From Apostichopus japonicus (lineage: Eukaryota; Echinodermata; Holothuroidea; Aspidochirotida; Stichopodidae), in NCBI RefSeq assembly GCF_037975245.1, contig NC_092566.1, positions 14,624,501 to 14,688,500 of the forward strand: a stretch of 64,000 bases of DNA. Reading direction: 5' to 3'. Positions 22,468-63,357 of the stretch are shown here, in pieces; the first letter of the stretch is position 1, and each line of letters opens with the position of its first letter. The notes below the pieces were generated by a model. It ran no database searches, was not told the DNA's origin, and worked only from the letters and a program-made list of their open reading frames with translations. Position numbers and translations under genes: made by a program.

Positions 22468-22475
22468 ACTGAAAA

Positions 22476-23734
<1,259 letters not shown>

Positions 23735-24233
23735 TAAGCGGGTGAATTAGCCATTCACTGATCATTGTAGTTGTAGATAAATCTATAGTTTTTCCCGTCT
23801 GATTGCTATAATAATCCTAATCGTTTTCTTTGGTTTCATGTATTCTAACTCATCCCCTTTAAGACCTTCATGTGTTCATATGCCTCTGTGACTGACTTAC
23901 AACCGAACTGTTTCGACAGTGAATAAGTACAAGCTGTACACTGGCGAAGGGGGCATAGTAGGGGGTGGGGGGAGGGAGCTAAATGGTACCGGTTGATGTT
24001 AATAGCAACGATTGAAGACTTCTATACCTACACACCACGCCCTCCCAACCATGCGTTGCAAGTATTACCAAGAAATGGCTCATGGAGACTCTACCACTTG
24101 AGTCTCCTATACATGCCTTCTTCAACGCCAATCACCAACCACCCTCCCAACCCCATCACAACCCAGCTCCGCCCTTACTTTGAAAGAAAGAAAGAAAGAT
24201 TCGTTCATAAATTTTATAAATTACTATAATAAA

Positions 24234-26310
24234 TTACGTATGATGATGTAGGCTATTACAGAAAATGAAGTGAACATTCGTGCATTGCTATATAACAACG
24301 GAAATATTGCAGTACGTACTCGAACGGTTTTACGTAATATTGACTATACATCATGTCAATCCCCATGCACCCTCCATACCCCCAAAAGACATTTTCTTTA
24401 TTGGATGTTACTGGAGAACAACCGGACATGTGTACTTGAATATCTAGTGATTTGTATTTAGCCGTATTGTTATGCTTTCTATGAGAAAATAACGAAACAA
24501 AAGTTTTGAACAAAAGTAGTTTTTTTCACCATGTTTTCTTTCACTTGTAGAGTATTATGACTTCACCCTGTCATCACACCCTATCCTTTCCTCGTCACAC
24601 CCAAAACTGTGTTGAAAAATAAGTTTGGACAGCCTGAATAAGTTGTTGGCGTTTCCCTTAAATCATTCCAATTCCCATTCCCACTCACCAACCACCACCC
24701 ACCAACCACCACCCATCACCCGATCCCCCCTCCCCAACCCTCCTCTCCTTATTCAGAGTCCTATATAACTGTACCAATTTTTCGGCCACATTGTTCCCTC
24801 TCTCGCATAATCATAATGCAGTCATATTGCATACCATAATACAACCTATCAATCATTTAACAATTTAGGAGGTGGATAATTATGTAAACTAGAATATTTT
24901 GACAGTCAGAGTGCTCATGGTCTGAACGGAGCTAACTGAAGTCTTTAATGTGTAGGCAAATTAATCCCCTCGTTGCAACCCTTTGTCAGGGGCTGATCCA
25001 GGATTTCAAATTTTGAATGGAGGGGTGTAGCCCTGGGATCGTTGAATCGGATTCCCATGCAGATAGGTCTACAGGTACCCCCCCCCCACCTCTACCCCCG
25101 AAAAAAGTATTAAAAAAGCATTCTTGTGAGGGATATTTCGGCTTCAAATCAGGCGTGCAATGAGATCCACACTCAATGTTGTAACACAAACCACTCCATT
25201 TTTTGTAAGGCAGCTGAAAGAGGGGTTACACATGGCAACGAACCCCCTTCATCCTACCCTCCCCGTCCCCTTTCTTCTCCCCCACCCTTTCCCCGTCTGA
25301 ATCAGCGTCTGCTCTTTTATACTTTATACATAACTCAGAAAATGCGATTAATTCGTCGTTATCGGCTAATGCGGTTCTAACTGAAGTCGTTTACCTGGTT
25401 TTGTAGTTGACATTGTTTACAGTTCAGAGGTGAAATAGTATATACTTAAACAAATTGCTCTCAACAAACTGCATGGATACAATTTTGTTTTATTTAAAGG
25501 ACTCAATCATACCTACAGAGTGAGATTGGCAACTATATTGTCAACAAAACGGCTGAAAGTTTAAACGCGTGTCCCTTCTGTGTGTTTTCCTCCTCTGGTT
25601 TAATGACTAGTTTACTACTTTAAGATTTGTTCAAACTCGTTTATGTGTTTGAAGATAAATAGACTTAAAAGTGATTACGTGTCAAGCCTTCAAATACTCA
25701 AATAAAACGGGTTCTAGATTGATAGTTTAATATAGCAATGATGAGATCATGATTTACTACCTATCAATCTCTTCAAGTGAATTTAAAAAACAGGTAATTT
25801 GAATCCTGCAGACCAATGAAGGTTTCAAAGATCATTGGAGTGGTCAGTCGGTTAAATATGGTAGTATTTCAATTGATGGTCACAAACTCCAATATGAAAT
25901 TTAATACCCCTATCAGCCCCCTCCCCCCTCCCTCCCTCCGGTAAAAAGGTTTTGTTTAGATCTCTAGTAAAATTTGTTAATTCAACATCCCGTATATCTG
26001 GAAATAATGTGGTAAATCTTTGCACTGTGACAAGTGTAAGCAAGTTAGAGCCTGAACGTCAGCAAAAGACCCGTGGGTACATCTATGGCTTGCCAAATAC
26101 CCAATAATTAGGTATTCGAGTATCAACATGTATCTCTTTCGAGATCCGGCTTTAGGAATCACAAATGATTTCGAGTTAGTTAGCACCATGTTCGATCTCT
26201 AGAATAGGGCAAATATGTCACCAAAACAGAACTAGTATTGTTAGATACAGGTGACTAACGCCTACAGTGGAATTACGACCCTTCCTTACCGGTTTCGAAC
26301 CTCTGGACAA
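24234..26310. other. No gene seen between the two lipid-binding-protein genes
   Basis: It includes a CCAACCACCACCCA tandem patch near 24685-24720, a copy of the dispersed G-rich repeat near 25000-25090 and C-rich runs. No exon is supported. Confidence 0.45.
25000..25090 (+). repeat. Dispersed G-rich repeat, copy 2
   Basis: GGGTGTAGCCCTGGGATCGTT followed by GATTCCCATGC and a C-run; same family as 3970, 33600 and 34800. Confidence 0.55.
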
Positions 26311-26315
26311 TCAAT

Positions 26316-26426
26316 CAGCGTCCATAGCCTAGTGGTTAGGGTGTCTACATATAAAGCCGGGGGCCTGGGTTCGAATCCCGGTGGAAGTTTTTTCACTGTT
26401 CTGGATTTTCCAGCTCATTACGTCAA

Positions 26427-26430
<4 letters not shown>
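26316..26430 (+). mobile_element. tRNA-derived SINE, second family
   Basis: A box TAGCCTAGTGG (26325-26335) and B box GGTTCGAATCC (26368-26378) are followed by TTTTTTCACTGTTCTGGATTT and a (TA)n tail. The same 3' body follows a truncated head at 54470, which shows it is a repeat family and not a tRNA gene. Confidence 0.8.

Positions 26431-26491
<61 letters not shown>
26430..26491. repeat. (TA)n microsatellite, SINE tail
   Basis: Directly abuts the SINE 3' end. Confidence 0.95.
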
Positions 26492-26492
<1 letters not shown>

Positions 26493-26639
26493 CCATGTTT
26501 ATCGCTCGATTATCCAGGTTTTTCGAAAAATCTGGAATATCTATAATTATCTGGCATTTGGCTTGCCATAAACATCGCCGTATATCAAATGTTTTCTTCA
26601 TCATCTCATTTCCTCTTCACACCTGTCAACACAACCTCT

Positions 26640-26735
26640 ATCTTCGTACCAGTACGCCAACGACTCACATAGGCCTCCGTACCAGTACGCCAATGGCTTA
26701 CATAGGACTCCGTACCAGTACGCCAATGACTCACA
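26640..26735 (+). repeat. CGTACCAGTACGCCAATG tandem repeat, three copies
   Basis: A roughly 36-base unit (CGTACCAGTACGCCAA + C/TGACTCACATAGG...) is repeated three times upstream of lipid-binding protein gene 2. Confidence 0.85.
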
Positions 26736-26964
26736 TATGACTTCGCCTATAGTTCGCGCCTCGCGTGACTTTTGCCTTTATTTCAAGTTCGTTATATTTT
26801 ATGGACTTGTATTATCTTCAACAACACCGCAAACAGAAATAAAGAGCCGCAGATTAAAAGCCAGAGAGTTTAGTTAAAGAGTCTCTCAGCTTTTGAAGTC
26901 AGTCAGTGTTTACTTTTTTTGGCACGAAAGATAAGAACTGGTCACGAGTGTGCGTAATTGTAAA

Positions 26965-27059
26965 CTTTGTCCAATGAGAAGAAGGCTTTCTTAATATTGT
27001 CCAATCAAAAGCAGGCTTATGTTGGACAGAGGACTGGTGGTCATCCTTAAATAGTCAAG
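26965..27059 (+). promoter_or_regulatory. Probable promoter of lipid-binding protein gene 2
   Basis: Two GTCCAAT boxes (CCAAT at 26971-26975 and 27001-27005) and a TTAAATAG TATA-like element at 27048-27055. The arrangement parallels gene 1. Confidence 0.5.
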
Positions 27060-27121
27060 GATGTGTCAAGAATTAGCACTCCTTGACCAATCAACTTTCG
27101 ATCAAGATCTCTTCACACCGG
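27060..27121 (+). other. Probable noncoding first exon of lipid-binding protein gene 2
   Basis: Ends at donor ACCGG|GTGAGT. The matching acceptor is ACTATGCAG at 27939, 34 bases before the ATG. Confidence 0.5.
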
Positions 27122-27939
27122 GTGAGTACGAATTCTTCAGTTGCATTTCTGCAAGTTCGATTTTACTTTGAAATATGACGAAAAGTTGAACAATTTCATG
27201 TTTCTTTTCGAATCTGGTTATCATGATACTAATTTAACAAAAATTGACTTGGCTATAAAACTTATCAAGACATGTACATTTTTAGTGCGAATTTCCTCAC
27301 AAAACTATAACTTTGCTCTTGTTCCTGAAGCCAATGCTGTATTTTAAATATGGCTATTCGACATAGTGTTCATAATGTAGTTAAGTCATACATTGTGGAT
27401 CGAAATCAAAGACGGCCAAGAAAAACTCTCGCAAGTTGACATAAAATTCTGTGCTTAGCTTATACTTTGAAGGAATAAATATACCGACGGTACACAATGT
27501 AACACTTATTTAAAAAAGGCCAAAAGAAAAATCCCAACATTTTAGTTTGAAAATCCCATCCCAATCCCTTCTCCCGAACAATTCGTTAAGAGAACTATTC
27601 CTAGTTTTCAGTGACCAAACGCTCACTTAGTCTAGAAAATGCATCACATGTGGTGGTTTGAGATGCGATTGTAGCATAAGTTGCTAAAAACAATGTACTT
27701 TCTCATTAATCTTCTTTGAAATGATTAAAAGAATTAAAATAGCCTTTCTGATATTTCTTTGTACAATCTTCAATATAATTTTTTATATATTTTTATAATT
27801 TTTTCGTGTTTTTGTTTTTGTTTCAAAGAATGTCCCTTAAAGTATTCCTGTACCCATTTCACTCGCCCACGCACCACATCTGATGTTGTACGCTAGTTTT
27901 GATCATGTATTTAATATATCGTTACTTTTCACTATGCAG
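27122..27939 (+). other. 5' UTR intron of lipid-binding protein gene 2
   Basis: AT-rich; a 68-codon frame at 27141-27347 shows no recognisable domain. Confidence 0.45.
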
Positions 27940-27973
27940 TAAATTAATCTACCACCAACCATCACTATTCAAC

Positions 27974-28156
27974 ATGCCTGGTGCTGCACTGAATGGAAAA
28001 TGGGTCTTCGACCACGGAGAGGGCATGGATGCTGTTGTAAAGGCTCTAAACGTCCCCGCTGATAAAATACCCCAGGACACTAACTCTACCGTCGATATTA
28101 AAGTTAATGGTGATAACATCACCATCACTACATCCTTTGGTGGCAAGACTGCAGAG
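27974..28156 (+). CDS. Lipid-binding protein 2, coding exon 1
   Basis: 61 codons, ATG in AACATGCC. Donor GCAGAG|GTAGGA. An upstream in-frame extension exists, but the acceptor at 27939 and the paralogue favour this start. Confidence 0.9.
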
Positions 28157-30207
28157 GTAGGACAAACTTTCTTCTACCCAAAAGTAAAACGTCGATTCTT
28201 CCAAAATGCATGCATAATTAAATTTTTTTTTTTTTGGTCAACTTAAATCTTTTACTTTTTTGTTGGACGCACTGTCCGAATATCACCCTTTCTTTTGGAT
28301 AAGACCATGCATTGTGGGATTCGGGAAAACTAATATAATGTACTGCTGTGGTAGGTTCAACGGTGGCAATCATTGCATAAACTCTCTCACTATGACAAAC
28401 ATACGAACTTCTCGGCTGCCGTACAAACTGTACTCTCAAAGAATGACTAAAGGCAAACTTTTAAAACTTAATATGTTATACTTTAAAAAAAAAGGAAACA
28501 TCAAGTTTGAGGTTTAGTCACGTTTTCTATAGCTGTTCCGGGTTTTCAAGAACGCTTCTTTAAGATTATGATGACGGAAACTCCTCAGTGTGGGTGTAAC
28601 TGTTAACGTGGATCCATATTTAAAACATTCTAATATTTCTACCGAAACTTGTTCTTTTTACATCAAATAAATAACAGAGCACCATTGTATGACATGCAAG
28701 TCCATTTGTCTTTGACAAATGCATATACTCTATTGTAAATTTTGCTATTTAAGTGTCGTGTTGTATACGAGGAACTGACCTAACAGTCTGTGTGTTAGAC
28801 TTAGAAGTTCAGCCACTTTCTATGTTGTGCCTGACAGGTATCAAGGGTCATTTCTCAAACTTAAATATGGTATAGAAATACAACACGGCCTGATAGCAAT
28901 TTTGTAGCAGTCAAAAAATTATCAACATTAATTTTGTGCCTTACAGTGATACTGTAAGCTTTCCACCAAATAAATAAGCCAATATGAAAATACGCGTAGT
29001 GGCATGGCTGCAACTCGATCTCGTAGTTGGCATGTTGCCGAATTTCGACGACCCATTGATCCAATAAAGAGAAACGTTTTTAATATCAGGCTTTATATGA
29101 AGGAGGGGAGAAGGAGTCGGGCTACAGTCACGGGACAAATGGGTCAAATATTGTGCCGGGGTAAATATGGGACAAATAATGACGTATTAAGGGGAAATGG
29201 AGAGTGCCAAAGTGGGCCCGATATTATGATTGTCCCCGGGGACCACCTGGCTTTCGACTGAGTGTTTACTTCGATAAGTAGAAGTACGTTACAGCCTGGT
29301 GGATTGTCACAACTGCTCTTTTCTTATACGACTTATCAGATTAAAATACTTCCGTAAACAGAAAAAAAGTTACAGGCGAACTGTATTTAGATTATTCAGG
29401 GAGCTGATAATAGCTAGATAATAATAGAGAATATAAATAATTTGGGCGGTAGTCAACTTTGCTTCAGTCGCTACTTGTTGTGTTTCGAGATACTGATACT
29501 TTAAAGTGCCTAATTTTGTAACAGTTCGGAAATCAACTTGAAGCAAACATGTGTGACGTCATAGATGTACATTGAAAAGGGAATATTAAGGAATTTTTTT
29601 TTGGCTTTTCGATCTTTGCTATATTGGTGGGACCTTGGGTTTGGCTTAGGGTTCGAATATACCAAAATGTATTGTGTGATATGAAATAACAATATTGACA
29701 CATTCTTATGCATCCAATTTCAAGTACAAAGATGTAATCTTAAATAGATAACAACCGAAATATTGCCTTTCAATGCGTTATTGTGTGAATTCTTTGCGAA
29801 GAACAAAAACTGTATAGCTGTTGTTATCTTATAAAACGATAAGAAGTAAATAAATGCAATTTTTTTTACAAGTCAAACAAAATTCTACCTCCGAACTATT
29901 CTTTCAAACTTCTTAAACCTCAAATGTCCCTAAAAATGTCATTTTTTTTTTTATTTTAATTTTATTTTGTCCGTGTGTTGTAACTTCACAGAGTCAAATG
30001 GTCATTGGACAGGCCCGAGCCGCTACCGAACTTTCCCGACTCTCCGGAAAAGACGTCACCGGCACACCGTCATGGGATGGGGACAAGTTAGTCGTTCAAG
30101 GAGCAGGAGGAAAGGGCAAAATTATTCGTGAGGTCGTCGGAGGAAAACTCCAGGTGACCTTTCAGTTTGGTGACGTGTCAGGAAAGAGGATCTTCAACAA
30201 AGCTTGA
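27974..30207 (+). CDS. Fatty acid-binding protein-like (intracellular lipid-binding protein) 2
   Basis: Two coding exons (27974-28156, 29992-30207) join in phase 0 to 132 residues. By eye about half the residues match paralogue 1, including GKWVFD, EGMDA-V, PADK-P, GKD, TPSW, KLVV, REVV-G-L and SGKRIF-KA. The split falls at the same point of the fold and the second exon has exactly the same length (71 codons). The C-terminus is R-I-F. The role expected from the family is cytosolic carriage of a hydrophobic ligand; the specific ligand is unknown. AATAAA signals lie at 30237-30242 and 30287-30292. The pair is a head-to-tail tandem duplication, old enough for introns, UTRs and ligand-facing residues to have diverged. 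Confidence 0.93.
28157..29991 (+). other. Coding intron of lipid-binding protein gene 2
   Basis: AT-rich with T-runs. A stretch near 29150-29255 (GATTGTCCCCGGGGACCACC) resembles one near 40440 and is probably an interspersed repeat. Confidence 0.45.
29992..30207 (+). CDS. Lipid-binding protein 2, coding exon 2
   Basis: Acceptor TAACTTCACAG, then 71 codons and TGA. Phase 0. Confidence 0.92.
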   Translation, partial: SQMVIGQARAATELSRLSGKDVTGTPSWDGDKLVVQGAGGKGKIIREVVGGKLQVTFQFGDVSGKRIFNKA

Positions 30208-60617: not shown

Positions 60618-63357
60618 CTTTCTATTAATTTTTTACGGTATGGAGCAAATGTATACATGTCAAATGAAAATATGAAGAATTTAGGAAACAGAACATTTCA
60701 GAAAAGACAATGATTCACCACCTCCCCCCCCCCCTCCAATTACAAAGAAATCTAACCTGCATGGTTTTATCGAACCACCTGTTCCCTGCATTCATGCCTA
60801 CTCCACCCCCGTGAAGCATCTGTAGCGCCAATGGTTCATCGTCAGCGTCCATAGGTTTCCCTACCTCTGCCGGAGGGTGGTCCATGGGTGCATCCAGACA
60901 GAGGACAAAGATACATCGTTCAATCATGTCGAGGGAGTCTCTATTAGTTGAATCTATATAATCCACAAAAAAATCATGTCGAGAGAGTCTCTATTAGTTG
61001 AATCTGAATAATCCACACAAAAAACAAAATATGTCGAGGGAGTCTCTATTAGTTGAATCTATATAATCCGCACACAAAAAATAGACAAAATAAAATCATG
61101 TCGAGGGAGTCTCTATTAGTTGAATCTATATAATCAAAAAAAAAAAAAAAAAACAACGTTCTAATATCAAAATTTGTATTCTGATAAAACGTCAGAAATC
61201 GAACCATCAAAAGTCATTAGACCATTGTTTTGCCAAAACACGTTACCTTATAAGCGAAATAGAGTATCCGAGGGACAAATATCGGAAGATAAGGATAGTT
61301 ACTACCGATGAAGCAGTGCAAAGGAAAAACACCGTTATAAAGTAATAGTAGCACACTCGCAAAAGTATGCTCAATCTGCCAACGATGTACCTTATAATTA
61401 GCAAAGTTATATTTGGAGGTAACATTTCATAAGAGGAGGGGCGGGGGGGGGGGATGTTGGAATCACCCGTCTGACCCATACTTTGATCCGAGCTTGATCA
61501 TGGAATTGGTCAAAACTAACCTCTACAACCGTTGTAATACCGTTGTAAATGGTAAATGACTTAAAATGACATAGCGTGACACCCTAACCTTTCATGATGC
61601 TTAATTAATTTAATCTAATCTTAATTTTCAAATACTAAGAACGGACGTCTTGCAAAAGAAATAAACAGTTGTAATTGTTTTTTTCTCTAGAGGAGATTGT
61701 CTTTTCTTTACTGAAACTAGATTTCTTTGTGACACAAATTCAACTCTAACCTTTAATTAGCAACGCCTCTCAGCTATCCAAACCCATGATTAGCTTTCAT
61801 TGACTGTAATTCATGTTACTATGTTAAACTAAGAGGAAAGAATGGCTTTTCCAAGAAGAAAGAGGAGAAGAAGAAGAAAAAACCTAGGAGGAAATACAAG
61901 CGACAGCGATAAAAGAGAGGATTAGAAAAGAAAAAAGCTGTTGATGCGCTTAAAAAATATGGAACAAAGACGCCAAAAATTAAATGAATAAATTAAGTAA
62001 TTAATTAATTAATTAATAAAGAAAGAAAGAAACCAAAACCAGCGACTGGCTCATCTCTTAACGTTATTAGCCTAAATACTAAACATAAATATTATGTATT
62101 AAGTTATGTTGCAAATCTGAGAGAACTGTGCAACTGTAACGTTTTTAAATTTTTGTAGCGGAAAGGGTCTCACCCTGACATAACTCTATACTTCAGCTGA
62201 TTGGATTTAGGCCTATATAGAGTTATATCGTGAGATTATAGCCTTTCTTACGTATACATTATAATACATACTCTCCATAAGTTTCATTCTGGCCCTCGCC
62301 CAATCAGTTCTCGACATCGCTGTCAAAAATCCTATAGACGGATCTGTTTCTTCGGTTGAGGAATCAACGATGCGTTTCAATTGACTGACAAGATCTTGGT
62401 CACTTAATCGCTTAAAGTTGATGATGACGTCGAGTACGAAAAACTGGCAACGAAAAGGAAAAAAATGAGTAAAAAGAATTAGAAGGAAAGAAAATAATGA
62501 TTTTATTAAAATTGATGTCTGTGACCTGATTTAAGACTATAGGTGTCATATGGTTTGTTGTTTCTTGATTCAGATTGTGGAATCATTTTCAGTTGATCTG
62601 ATTGTCAATATGAGTTGTGATTTAGGACAAAACAAACATGCTAGCCGAAGACTTTGCCACATGGGGTTAAATAATATATCTTTTTTAGCATAGAGATATG
62701 TGCGTGAAAGTGCATATATTGAGACTATCAGTTAAACTACTTTGAAGTGAAAACCTACAAACAATCGCATGTTATAATTAGTAAGCTTTGAAAAAATATC
62801 AACGACATCATATCAATAAACCAATATAGAAAATGGAGTGATTTAAATAAAAGCATTATTATGTATATGCAGGTCTGAAGTGTTCAGACTTATTAATGAT
62901 GCATATGACTTAAAATAATTGTATAAAAATAACAAGTTTTAGCCTTTGAGAAGCAACCTGAAAATGAGAACATTATTTCAGAATTGGTATTGACGTTGTT
63001 TACGCAAACCTATATAACAATGTACACTGTAAACTGTAATATGTCCTCTCCATCGATATCAGAATGTTTATTTGGTTATTGTAAATCGATATTTGTTCTA
63101 TTCTTCGATATCAGAATGTTAACTTGGTCATTGTAAAACTGATAAATGTCCTTTCTATCGGTATCAGAATATTTACCTGGTTATTGCAAACTACTATAAT
63201 GTGTTCAGGTTCTGGCATCACACTACTCGTTGGTGAAACTAATTCATCCTTTACTAATCCAGGTACACGATAGGATGAGAACAGTCTGTAATATTGCTCC
63301 ATACACATAGGTTGACCAGGTTTGTTGTGTCTAGCTCTGTCAACTGGCAAAGCTTTT
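39946..63357 (-). CDS. ChAT: Choline O-acetyltransferase, C-terminal 492 codons in ten exons (partial)
   Basis: Ten minus-strand exons join with matching phases and consensus GT-AG sites into 492 codons ending TAA. The order follows the carnitine/choline acyltransferase family: [46 protein letters not shown] and GNRWFDK. Then come YEHSPSEG with the catalytic His, [18 protein letters not shown] and [12 protein letters not shown] with the CoA-binding lysines, [21 protein letters not shown] and GPVVADGYG. ChAT transfers acetyl from acetyl-CoA to choline in cholinergic neurons. Val-Asp-Asn in GRVDNIRS is the ChAT signature (carnitine enzymes have Thr-Asp/Glu-Thr), and the Arg that binds the carnitine carboxylate (FDRHLLGL) is Cys here (FDCHFLGL). 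MPEPEHII and [13 protein letters not shown] also favour ChAT over CRAT. About 150 N-terminal residues lie beyond 64000. Confidence 0.93.
40177..42083 (-). other. ChAT intron i-j, left part
   Basis: An interspersed-repeat-like patch at 40310-40490, a perfect short hairpin AGGGAGTT-ccataac-AACTCCCT at 40613-40635 and a short (TA) array at 41068-41086. No coding exon. Confidence 0.45.
42084..42415 (-). mobile_element. Full-length tRNA-derived SINE (Thr-like head)
   Basis: Read on the minus strand it has A box TGGCCAATTGG (42401-42391), a CTCGTAA anticodon-like loop and B box GGTTCGATTCC (42357-42347). The body ends AGCGCTTTGAGACC...AAGCGCTATATAAAATTC and the tail is (ATT)n at 42084-42118. The GCGCTATATAAA end is typical of widespread marine-invertebrate SINEs. 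Confidence 0.88.
42416..42585 (-). other. ChAT intron i-j, right end
   Basis: Short unique sequence; nothing else seen. Confidence 0.4.
42586..42723 (-). CDS. ChAT: ChAT exon i
   Basis: 46 codons, phase 0; acceptor CCAATTAG, donor [20 protein letters not shown] and [11 protein letters not shown]; the Ser-Thr-Ser triad binds substrate. Cys replaces the Asn (ChAT) or Arg (CRAT) of FDxHLLGL. Confidence 0.93.
42724..43380 (-). other. ChAT intron h-i
   Basis: AT-rich; no features beyond a T-run at 42969. Confidence 0.5.
43381..43443 (-). CDS. ChAT: ChAT exon h
   Basis: A 21-codon phase-0 exon between TTTTCAG and [29 protein letters not shown] matches the KLLLLKDAIRAQT region of ChAT only loosely. 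Confidence 0.85.
43444..43823 (-). other. ChAT intron g-h
   Basis: Contains a short (TA) array at 43680-43701. Confidence 0.5.
43824..43962 (-). CDS. ChAT: ChAT exon g, choline-type VDN signature
   Basis: One base plus 46 codons; acceptor CCTTTCAG, donor [29 protein letters not shown], then [14 protein letters not shown]. Confidence 0.95.
43963..45416 (-). other. ChAT intron f-g, right part
   Basis: AT-rich; 44350-44457 resembles 36390-36500. No exon. Confidence 0.4.
45425..45742. mobile_element. hAT-like MITE, CAGGCGCGTAGCC ends
   Basis: Starts CAGGCGCGTAGCCAGG and ends CTTGGCTACGCGCCTG, with flanking direct repeat GGATAAT (45418-45424 and 45743-45749). Relatives sit at 58249 and 58957, sharing GGAATTTGC-AAGGGAGGGGCG, AAGCGTAGCGCCA, and CAGATCGCTGGAAATG. 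Confidence 0.8.
46010..46082. mobile_element. hAT-like element right-end fragment
   Basis: A C-run followed by AGTATAGCTACGCGCCTG, a solo right terminus of the same family; no left end found nearby. Confidence 0.45.
46737..46915 (+). repeat. Two-copy tandem repeat, about 90-105 bp
   Basis: GGCCGATTGCCGGCTTCGTG...CCCCTCCCCAATTTG is repeated as GGCCGAATACCGGCCTCCTG..., each with an internal G-run. A 161-codon plus frame runs through it without any domain. Confidence 0.9.
47137..47259 (-). CDS. ChAT: ChAT exon f, CoA-binding segment
   Basis: One base, 40 codons, two bases; acceptor GACCATAG, donor [29 protein letters not shown] is very close to the CoA-binding lysine region. Confidence 0.95.
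47260..47752 (-). other. ChAT intron e-f
   Basis: AT-rich, A-run near 47660; no other feature. Confidence 0.5.
47753..47887 (-). CDS. ChAT: ChAT exon e
   Basis: One base, 44 codons, two bases; acceptor CGCTTCACAG, donor [30 protein letters not shown] aligns with [20 protein letters not shown] of vertebrate ChAT. Confidence 0.93.
   Translation of the reverse strand, partial: RFRNTQEEIDESTIDMRVALPKTIEMEADVIYNRRHPEGNTNAR
47888..49330 (-). other. ChAT intron d-e, part before the transposon
   Basis: C-run at 48525; 48890-49030 resembles 32330-32480 (AACCCCAGTCCC...TCGAGACTGT). No exon. Confidence 0.45.
49345..49735. repeat. Left subterminal TTAGTCGG/CCGACTAA cluster
   Basis: Some twenty copies of GACTAA/TTAGTC-type motifs in both orientations, plus internal CACTGAAAG copies at about 49678 and 49719. 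Confidence 0.85.
50358..51865. repeat. 1.5-kb palindrome (long inverted repeat with tandem core)
   Basis: The left arm (about 50358-50890) is repeated in reverse complement at about 51330-51865 with few differences. Shared landmarks are CCAGAGGGTTTGGTTAGCTG, GGCTGGGAGAGCAATTTTAA and GGCCATTGCCAGTAATTATT. The centre (about 50700-51315) is made of diverged tandem units of about 150 bases containing GGGGTACCCCTGCCAGTAGA. Confidence 0.95.
52028..52225 (-). pseudogene. Protein-like segment inside the CACTG element, unidentified
   Basis: Minus strand, after acceptor TTTCTTTCTTCCAG, an open frame reads [20 protein letters not shown] and [17 protein letters not shown] and stops at 52028. The composition looks like real protein. 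Family unknown. It may be an exon of the element's own lost gene or captured host sequence. Confidence 0.3.
52226..53865. other. CACTG element interior, no gene seen
   Basis: AT-rich interior; no transposase motif readable in any frame. Confidence 0.4.
53866..54118. repeat. Right subterminal TTAGTCGG/CCGACTAA cluster
   Basis: A dozen or so motifs such as ACCGACTAAGCT and CCTTAGTC in both orientations up to the right terminus. Confidence 0.85.
54403..54468. repeat. (TA)n microsatellite
   Basis: Perfect TA array directly before a truncated SINE. Confidence 0.97.
54470..54552 (+). mobile_element. 5'-truncated SINE, same family as 26316
   Basis: B box GGTTCGAATCC (54482-54492), then TTTTTTCACTGTTCT and CCAACTCATTACG, then another (TA)n array at 54553-54582. 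Confidence 0.75.
54583..55685 (-). other. ChAT intron d-e continued; no gene seen
   Basis: AT-rich with a C-run near 55208. Short frames only. Confidence 0.45.
55686..56045 (-). repeat. Roughly 95-bp minisatellite, four copies
   Basis: Unit: ATGATTGGAGCACCGAAATAAACG, GCTAGTATCCGAACAAGCAGG, then a long G-run and a TTGGCTTGTCGT end. Four clear copies, plus short decayed units to 56050. Confidence 0.92.
56360..56910. repeat. AGATTA-rich degenerate repeat region with a ~125-bp tandem unit
   Basis: Dense TTAGATTA/CTAATCTA motifs in both orientations. GACAAGTGGAGACTGTGTGA...GGTAA is present twice (about 56688 and 56802), showing a tandem unit. Confidence 0.7.
56911..57976 (-). other. ChAT intron d-e, end; no gene seen
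   Basis: AT-rich; C-run at 57684. Confidence 0.45.
57977..58077 (-). CDS. ChAT: ChAT exon d, catalytic His
   Basis: 33 codons plus two bases; acceptor CTGTATAG, donor [29 protein letters not shown] contains the Glu-His-Ser of the active site. Confidence 0.95.
58249..58450. mobile_element. hAT-like CAGGCGCGTA family, partial copy
   Basis: Starts CAGGCGCGTATCCAGG and shares the AAGCG-GCTGGTTGGCGCG and GATCGCCGGAAATGA blocks with the copies at 45425 and 58957. The right end is not preserved; another G/C-run fragment follows at 58548-58620. Confidence 0.6.
58957..59220. mobile_element. hAT-like CAGGCGCGTA family, second partial copy
   Basis: From CAGGCGCGTAGCGAGG through the shared CAGATCGCTGGAAATG block to a G/C-run; the expected CGCGCCTG end is missing. 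A solo right end GGATACGCACCTG lies at 59647-59659. Confidence 0.6.
59450..59640 (+). repeat. Pyrimidine-rich (CTTTT/CTTCC) tract
   Basis: About 150 bases of almost pure C/T on the plus strand; ORFs through it are low-complexity. Confidence 0.8.
59655..60095 (+). repeat. (TCTG)n/(TATC)n compound microsatellite
   Basis: About 440 bp of tetranucleotide units TCTG, TCTA and TGTC. It generates a spurious 329-codon frame in 59340-60329. Confidence 0.97.
60096..60756 (-). other. ChAT intron c-d, end, with (TA)n at 60566-60615
   Basis: AT-rich intron next to exon c; only a TA microsatellite is notable. Confidence 0.5.
60757..60953 (-). CDS. ChAT: ChAT exon c
   Basis: Two bases plus 65 codons, acceptor GATTATATAG, donor GCAG|GTTAGA. 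Holds [13 protein letters not shown] and LHGGG...[10 protein letters not shown]. Its first 28-30 bases and acceptor are tandemly repeated upstream (see 60954-61130). Confidence 0.95.
60923..61130 (-). repeat. Four tandem copies of the ChAT exon c 3' splice site and exon start
   Basis: The unit GATTATATAG + ATTCAACTAATAGAGACTCCCTCGACATG occurs with acceptor-to-exon starts at 60953 (the real exon), 61003, 61058 and 61125, that is at spacings of 50, 55 and 67. Copy 2 has TTCAG in place of TATAG and one T change. The three upstream copies would each put an AG acceptor in front of the same reading frame. From copy 2 the frame hits TAG at the next copy's splice site. Confidence 0.95.
61131..62271 (-). 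other. ChAT intron b-c, right part
   Basis: AT-rich with A-run at 61137 and TTAA array at 61995; no exon. Confidence 0.5.
62272..62443 (-). CDS. ChAT: ChAT exon b
   Basis: 57 codons plus one base; acceptor CGTTGCCAG, donor [30 protein letters not shown] is close to vertebrate ChAT. Confidence 0.93.
62444..63176 (-). other. ChAT intron a-b
   Basis: Three degenerate copies of TATCAGAATGTT-ACTTGGTTATTGTAAA end at 63058, 63112 and 63166. They resemble the exon a donor region (ATTTACCTGGTTATTGCAAAC), so the exon's 3' edge and splice donor may be repeated here too. Confidence 0.5.
63177..63357 (-). CDS. ChAT: ChAT exon a (first in window)
   Basis: One base plus 60 codons, acceptor TTTTTTGTAG, donor CCAG|GTAAAT. 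Carries [20 protein letters not shown] and [10 protein letters not shown]. An upstream exon is required. Confidence 0.93.

Follow-up and report, generated by a model that had tools for sequence, protein, structure and literature searches.

Mirage minisatellites, tandem arrays lying across an intron-exon boundary, have been described from amphioxus (PMC3087553, PMC3902484; statements on these and on all other papers cited below refer to excerpts of the papers). Examples are the globin genes BflGb6 and BflGb9 (PMC3087553) and PGBD5 (PMC3902484, where Adh and TnC are cited as well). In BflGb6 the repeated sequence includes the 3' end of the intron and the 5' part of exon 2. It is present in six and three units in two haplotypes, and the results of reverse transcription polymerase chain reaction (RT-PCR) suggest that the gene is spliced regularly (PMC3087553). 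A candidate array of this kind was found in the choline acetyltransferase gene (ChAT) of the sea cucumber Apostichopus japonicus. It lies in a 64,000-nucleotide stretch of contig NC_092566.1 (positions 14,624,501 to 14,688,500; below, the window) and covers the acceptor, that is, the 3' splice site, of an exon denoted exon c. Most probably it is a mirage minisatellite driven by mutation, in which the exon-proximal copy is the main splice site.

As far as the literature was searched, this is a mirage minisatellite in a new phylum. No echinoderm mirage was found in the literature searched, which consists mostly of open journals, and an earlier report may exist. A literature search combining ChAT, splicing and sea cucumbers found no paper.

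The acceptor-side array at ChAT exon c

The upstream boundary of exon c is preceded, on the minus strand, by tandem near-identical copies of its T-rich tract, acceptor and first 28 coding bases, so that four such copies are present in all. The unit is approximately 50 bp long and spans the authentic intron-exon boundary, as it does in mirages. The fourfold repeat, with spacings of 50, 55 and 67, was originally predicted from the letters of the window and was recovered at exactly the predicted positions. The whole array is covered by two overlapping rows of Tandem Repeats Finder (TRF) output. The coordinates are given in the table below.

Between positions -12 and +30 around the acceptor, any two copies differ in 1 to 6 of 42 bases, and the three upstream copies, further called decoys, differ from copy 1 in 1 to 3 bases (39-41 of 42 core bases match). 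The original prediction needs one correction, concerning the acceptor: the sequence GATTATATAG is exact in three of the four copies, whereas copy 2 has GATTATTCAG, with TTCAG in place of TATAG. The AG dinucleotide is kept in all three decoys. The recurrence of the exon start in the intron is not due to chance, since the best intron match to the first 28 bases of exon c is 28/28, whereas 300 mononucleotide shuffles of the intron reached no more than 18/28. Read in the gene sense, the spacers are T-rich, and their lengths vary. Copy 4 has a longer pyrimidine tract than any other copy, with 17 pyrimidines among the 20 positions from -24 to -5, versus 12-13 in the rest. Each copy has a branch-point-like CTAAT in its exon-derived part, which falls at -41, -46 and -58 relative to the acceptors at 60953, 61003 and 61058, respectively. 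Of the original suggestion of a very recent slippage expansion, the kind of event is retained: this is an array formed by tandem duplication, with decoys that closely match copy 1.

PF00755 matches are aligned on the minus strand of the contig (C6 in the assembly set) from approximately 14.664 to 14.702 Mb. When the 65-residue translation of exon c is compared with PDB sequences, ChAT chains come first (E 5.6e-14), followed by carnitine acetyltransferase (best E 2.3e-11), in agreement with the original assignment of the exon. Exon c is followed by the donor CAG/GTTAGA after 60757 (here and below the slash marks the exon-intron boundary). Exon b ends in GAG A/GTATGT, and therefore the intron is in phase 1. 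Two PF00755 paralogs, on contigs C22 and C9, have the acceptor at the same protein position; in the C22 paralog the donor was also read, and the phase is again 1. Judging from the sequences, the position of this intron is old, because it is common to two paralogs.

The authentic acceptor is taken to be the one at 60953, given the intron position common with the paralogs and the reading frame. Only this most proximal of the four acceptors keeps the ChAT frame. Use of a decoy would add 50, 105 or 172 nt and lead to a stop after 16, 21 or 25 residues; in particular, the frame from copy 2 reaches TAG after 16 residues, as originally predicted.

A DNA search of the 671.6-Mb genome (35 contigs) found, at the sensitivity of the search, this one place. 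Thus there is no sign of a dispersed element, although the search skips very common words. Recursive splicing was also considered and set aside, as the junction in the copies, judged by eye, is AG/ATTC rather than AG/GT.

Features of the ChAT region (positions in the window; distances in nt)
Feature	Position	Strand	Basis
ChAT exon c, 197 nt (STNRDSLDM...DKTMQ); authentic acceptor taken as copy 1, first base 60953	60757..60953	-	ChAT match, PF00755, paralogs, sequence
Whole acceptor-side array (probable mirage minisatellite), spacings 50, 55, 67	60922..61148	-	TRF and sequence
Copy 1 core, acceptor -12 to +28, presumably the used copy	60926..60965	-	sequence
Copy 2 core, decoy acceptor GATTATTCAG, first exon-like base 61003	60976..61015	-	
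Copy 3 core, decoy acceptor, first exon-like base 61058	61031..61070	-	
Copy 4 core, decoy acceptor, first exon-like base 61125	61098..61137	-	
T18 tract (minus strand) before copy 4	61136..61153	-	
CTAAT motif in exon-derived part of copy 2	60993..60997	-	putative branch point
Intron between exons b and c, 1318 nt up to the authentic acceptor; donor GAGA/GTATGT	60954..62271	-	
Donor-side array at exon a, 3 copies (spacings 52, 53) of the exon end and donor CCAG/GTAAAT, last exon base 63177	63031..63190	-	

Arrays at other exon edges

A second array was found in ChAT, on the donor side of exon a. One of its two decoys, CCAA/GTTAAC (first intron-like base 63123), keeps the GT, whereas the other, CCAA/ATAAAC (63071), has lost it. 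Identity to the third copy is 78% and 82% for the other two. This array is more diverged than the one at exon c.

A survey of exon edges was made in the same genome, for PF00755, myosin and kinesin genes. The sample comprises 125 exon regions, that is, 250 edges, and covers 50 of 63 PF00755 matches, 35 of 70 myosin matches and 41 of 126 kinesin matches (two kinesin matches fall in one region). An edge was considered positive if at least 19 of 24 bases recurred within 320 nt on its outer side. The edges are those of hidden Markov model (HMM) matches; 19 of the 125 matches cross in-frame stops and so overrun the exon, some edges may be ends of genes or domains and not splice sites, and one edge (C9:255724, outer side) has only 3 nt of flank. 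This survey supersedes a smaller version with 104 edges (3 positive; minus-strand loci unturned) and one with 220 edges.

Seven of the 250 edges are positive: ChAT exons c and a, the myosin loci L043 and L085, and the kinesin loci L068, L076 and L115. Five of the seven are on the donor side. This suggests that mirages occur at about 2-3% of the sampled exon edges in an echinoderm. It also rules out a feature specific to ChAT, since such arrays are found at exons of other genes.

In the myosin and kinesin arrays the authentic donors and acceptors were judged by eye from the frame. The unit of myosin L043 (exon on C4; 1729-2651) is 53 bp long, and the donor AACTAG/GTATGC or its one-base variant occurs at 19 sites (1730-2659), all of them with intact GT. 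In kinesin L076 (exon on C22; 146-354) a 42-bp unit is repeated five times with 96% matches. This unit is a full acceptor module, composed of TACTAAC (or a close variant), pyrimidine tract, CAG and exon start, and all four decoys reach a stop after 6 residues in the exon frame. Kinesin L115 (exon on C17; 446-806) has four copies of approximately 48 nt of the exon end with the donor GTAAGT, separated by G-rich spacers. The donor of myosin L085 is present twice, in copies 220 nt apart. The donor of kinesin L068 is also present twice, the additional copy being old, decayed and barely over the threshold (19/24).

On the acceptor side of a PF00755 exon on C18, an array with a 32-bp unit and approximately 4.5 copies (L040:1794-1936) reaches the pyrimidine tract of the acceptor, the exon not being included.

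Exon edges are not enriched in such arrays. Tandem copies were found at 242 of 3000 general genic positions, drawn from 10 regions and the window with exons not excluded, and an earlier control restricted to flanks gave 144 positive positions of 1500. The proportion at exon edges is lower, both for all edges (7/250; two-sided Fisher test, p = 0.0012) and without ChAT (5/234; p = 0.0003). Because tandem copies are more frequent at general genic positions, the arrays at exon edges need no special explanation. Such a deficit would be seen if arrays formed throughout the sequence and were in part eliminated at exon edges. Genic sequence is rich in arrays: 30 with a period of at least 20 and a TRF score of at least 80 were found in 154,406 bases.

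The conservation of the splice core was compared with that of the rest of the unit by windows in five arrays. Special conservation of the core is not seen in ChAT, where 20 of 50 windows at exon c and 26 of 53 at exon a are better conserved than the core. As so many windows surpass the core, there is no sign that the ChAT decoys are kept for splicing. The exon-edge survey, which compares genes of one genome, detected no repeat at the corresponding acceptors of the C22 and C9 paralogs. In L076 no window is better than the core and 29 are equal to it, and in L115 three are better and 28 equal, the core itself being counted among the equal ones.

Origin of the array and use of its splice sites

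The array probably originated by replication slippage or unequal exchange, aided by the T-rich spacers, and drifts. Homology and frame indicate that splicing would proceed mainly to the exon-proximal acceptor at 60953. Exon definition would favour the acceptor that is followed by all of exon c, as each decoy offers only 28 nt of the exon, without the rest of exon c, any enhancers and a nearby donor. The CTAAT motif that copy 2 carries in its exon-derived part may act as a branch point for 60953. The only AG dinucleotides between this motif and 60953 end 4 and 6 nt past the branch A, and AGs at these distances are too close to be used. Thus copy 2 can serve as the branch-point region for the authentic acceptor. 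Leakage to the decoys would lead to a stop within 16-25 codons and to nonsense-mediated decay, and its cost would probably be a small loss of ChAT mRNA.

In PMC5389562 beta-globin acceptors were duplicated, the upstream one being followed by 14, 55 or 205 nt of exon, and splicing was exclusively distal. Here the distal site is taken to be the downstream copy. For an effect of exon length that paper cites earlier work by Reed and Maniatis (1986).

Several observations weigh against this reading. The use of 60953 is deduced from homology and frame, and copy 4, the first to be transcribed and the one with the longest pyrimidine tract (T18), may be used more often than assumed. The duplicated-acceptor constructs were spliced very inefficiently in vitro, and the distal site was chosen even at 205 nt, so these data support skipping of the upstream copy and not a role of exon length (PMC5389562). 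In myosin L043 the donor core is surpassed in conservation by only one of 53 windows of the unit, a hint of constraint in this array. The positive edges are distributed unevenly, with 5 of 150 in myosin and kinesin genes, 2 of 16 in ChAT, including exon c itself, and none of 84 in other PF00755 genes. Finally, the frequency is estimated from 125 regions in three protein families.

The original prediction offered, as one alternative, regulated poison splicing, with decoys kept by selection and their controlled use lowering the output of ChAT via nonsense-mediated decay. The AGs retained in all three decoys, the stops within 16-25 codons and the long pyrimidine tract of copy 4 would be consistent with such regulation. 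However, similar arrays are present at the second ChAT exon and at unrelated myosin and kinesin exons, the edges are poorer in arrays than the genic background, the ChAT core is conserved no better than the remainder of its unit, and the two paralogs surveyed have no repeat at the matching acceptor. The amphioxus equivalents are also reported to splice normally (PMC3087553, PMC3902484). Thus the suggestion is unsupported, and we consider it very unlikely. It is highly improbable that the array is a beneficial reinforcement, in which a multiplied, near-complete acceptor module boosts recruitment of U2AF and U2 to a TAG acceptor whose pyrimidine tract is modest. The unit does hold the branch-point-like CTAAT, at -41, -46 and -58 of successive acceptors, together with a T-rich tract and AG, and the kinesin L076 unit, with TACTAAC, pyrimidine tract and CAG in five copies, is similar in this respect. 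On the other hand, the predominance of donor-side arrays means that the process is not acceptor-specific, extra acceptors also compete, and ChAT shows no sign of constraint.

There is only a slim chance of an assembly error, the real gene having one copy or another copy number. Short repeats with A/T homopolymers are error-prone, and one amphioxus mirage was apparently misassembled in the draft genome (PMC3087553). However, the ChAT copies differ by substitutions and are separated by unequal spacers, and independent arrays of the same kind exist elsewhere, although an error in the exact number of copies is still conceivable. Least probable of all is that the array is a stage towards a new or shifted intron or exon. 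New introns are proposed to come from tandem duplication of exon-intron boundaries in amphioxus globins (PMC3087553) and from duplication of this type inside coding sequence in Drosophila (PMC2891723). The position of the ChAT intron, however, is common to two paralogs and hence old, and no decoy gives an open frame. Intron change is a possible later fate of the array rather than its present function.

Taken alone, the ChAT array, as a mirage minisatellite, is a curiosity, and the wider pattern is more interesting than any single array. If the survey holds, the genome provides naturally duplicated acceptors and donors in which the sequence is nearly constant while the position and the exon context vary. 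The choice of the spliceosome among identical sites, a question for which engineered constructs have been used, could then be read from ordinary RNA sequencing of one species. One can imagine thousands of acceptor and donor mirages in the genome, with near-identical sites competing by position alone, combined with a ChAT copy number that varies between animals and tunes the mRNA level via decoy leakage and decay; this combination is rather unlikely.

Outside these arrays, contig C29:14745-31219 contains pieces of COX1 with TGA codons, in addition to the mitochondrial contig C35. These are either nuclear copies or extra mitochondrial sequence. Contig C35 starts with COX1, in which genetic code table 9 yields the familiar STNHKDIGTLY and table 5 yields STKHKDIGTLY, and a frame resembling ND4L comes next; this code points to an echinoderm. 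On the plus strand of the window, at approximately 22473-30204, several frames resemble exons of fatty-acid-binding proteins (GKWVFDHGEGMDAVV...), perhaps forming a small tandem gene cluster.

Comparison with known systems

The ChAT arrays are similar to the amphioxus mirages in that tandem repeats lie over the intron-exon boundary, on the acceptor or the donor side, and contain the splice signals in many copies. In BflGb6, as in the exon c array, the 3' end of the intron and the 5' part of the exon are repeated (PMC3087553). The differences are the host, which is an echinoderm and not a cephalochordate, and the spacing of copies, 50-67 bp as opposed to 150-160 bp in BflGb6 (in Adh3 it is 10-72 bp). 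Besides, the amphioxus mirages are known with RT-PCR and haplotypes, whereas the ChAT array is known from the sequence of one assembly.

Intron gain or shift by tandem duplication, described in Drosophila (PMC2891723) and potato (PMC4974935), also involves duplication at splice or proto-splice sites and premature stops in the duplicated intronic part. However, in these systems the intron is in a new position, whereas in ChAT an old intron stays in place and gains only decoys. The intronic variable number tandem repeat (VNTR) of ABCA7 (PMC5954066) is, by its description, another tandem repeat within a gene that is linked to splicing. In the engineered beta-globin constructs with duplicated 3' splice sites (PMC5389562), as in ChAT, an upstream duplicate of the acceptor with a piece of the exon competes with the downstream acceptor. 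Compared with these constructs, the ChAT array is natural, and consists of four copies of a unit of approximately 50 bp.

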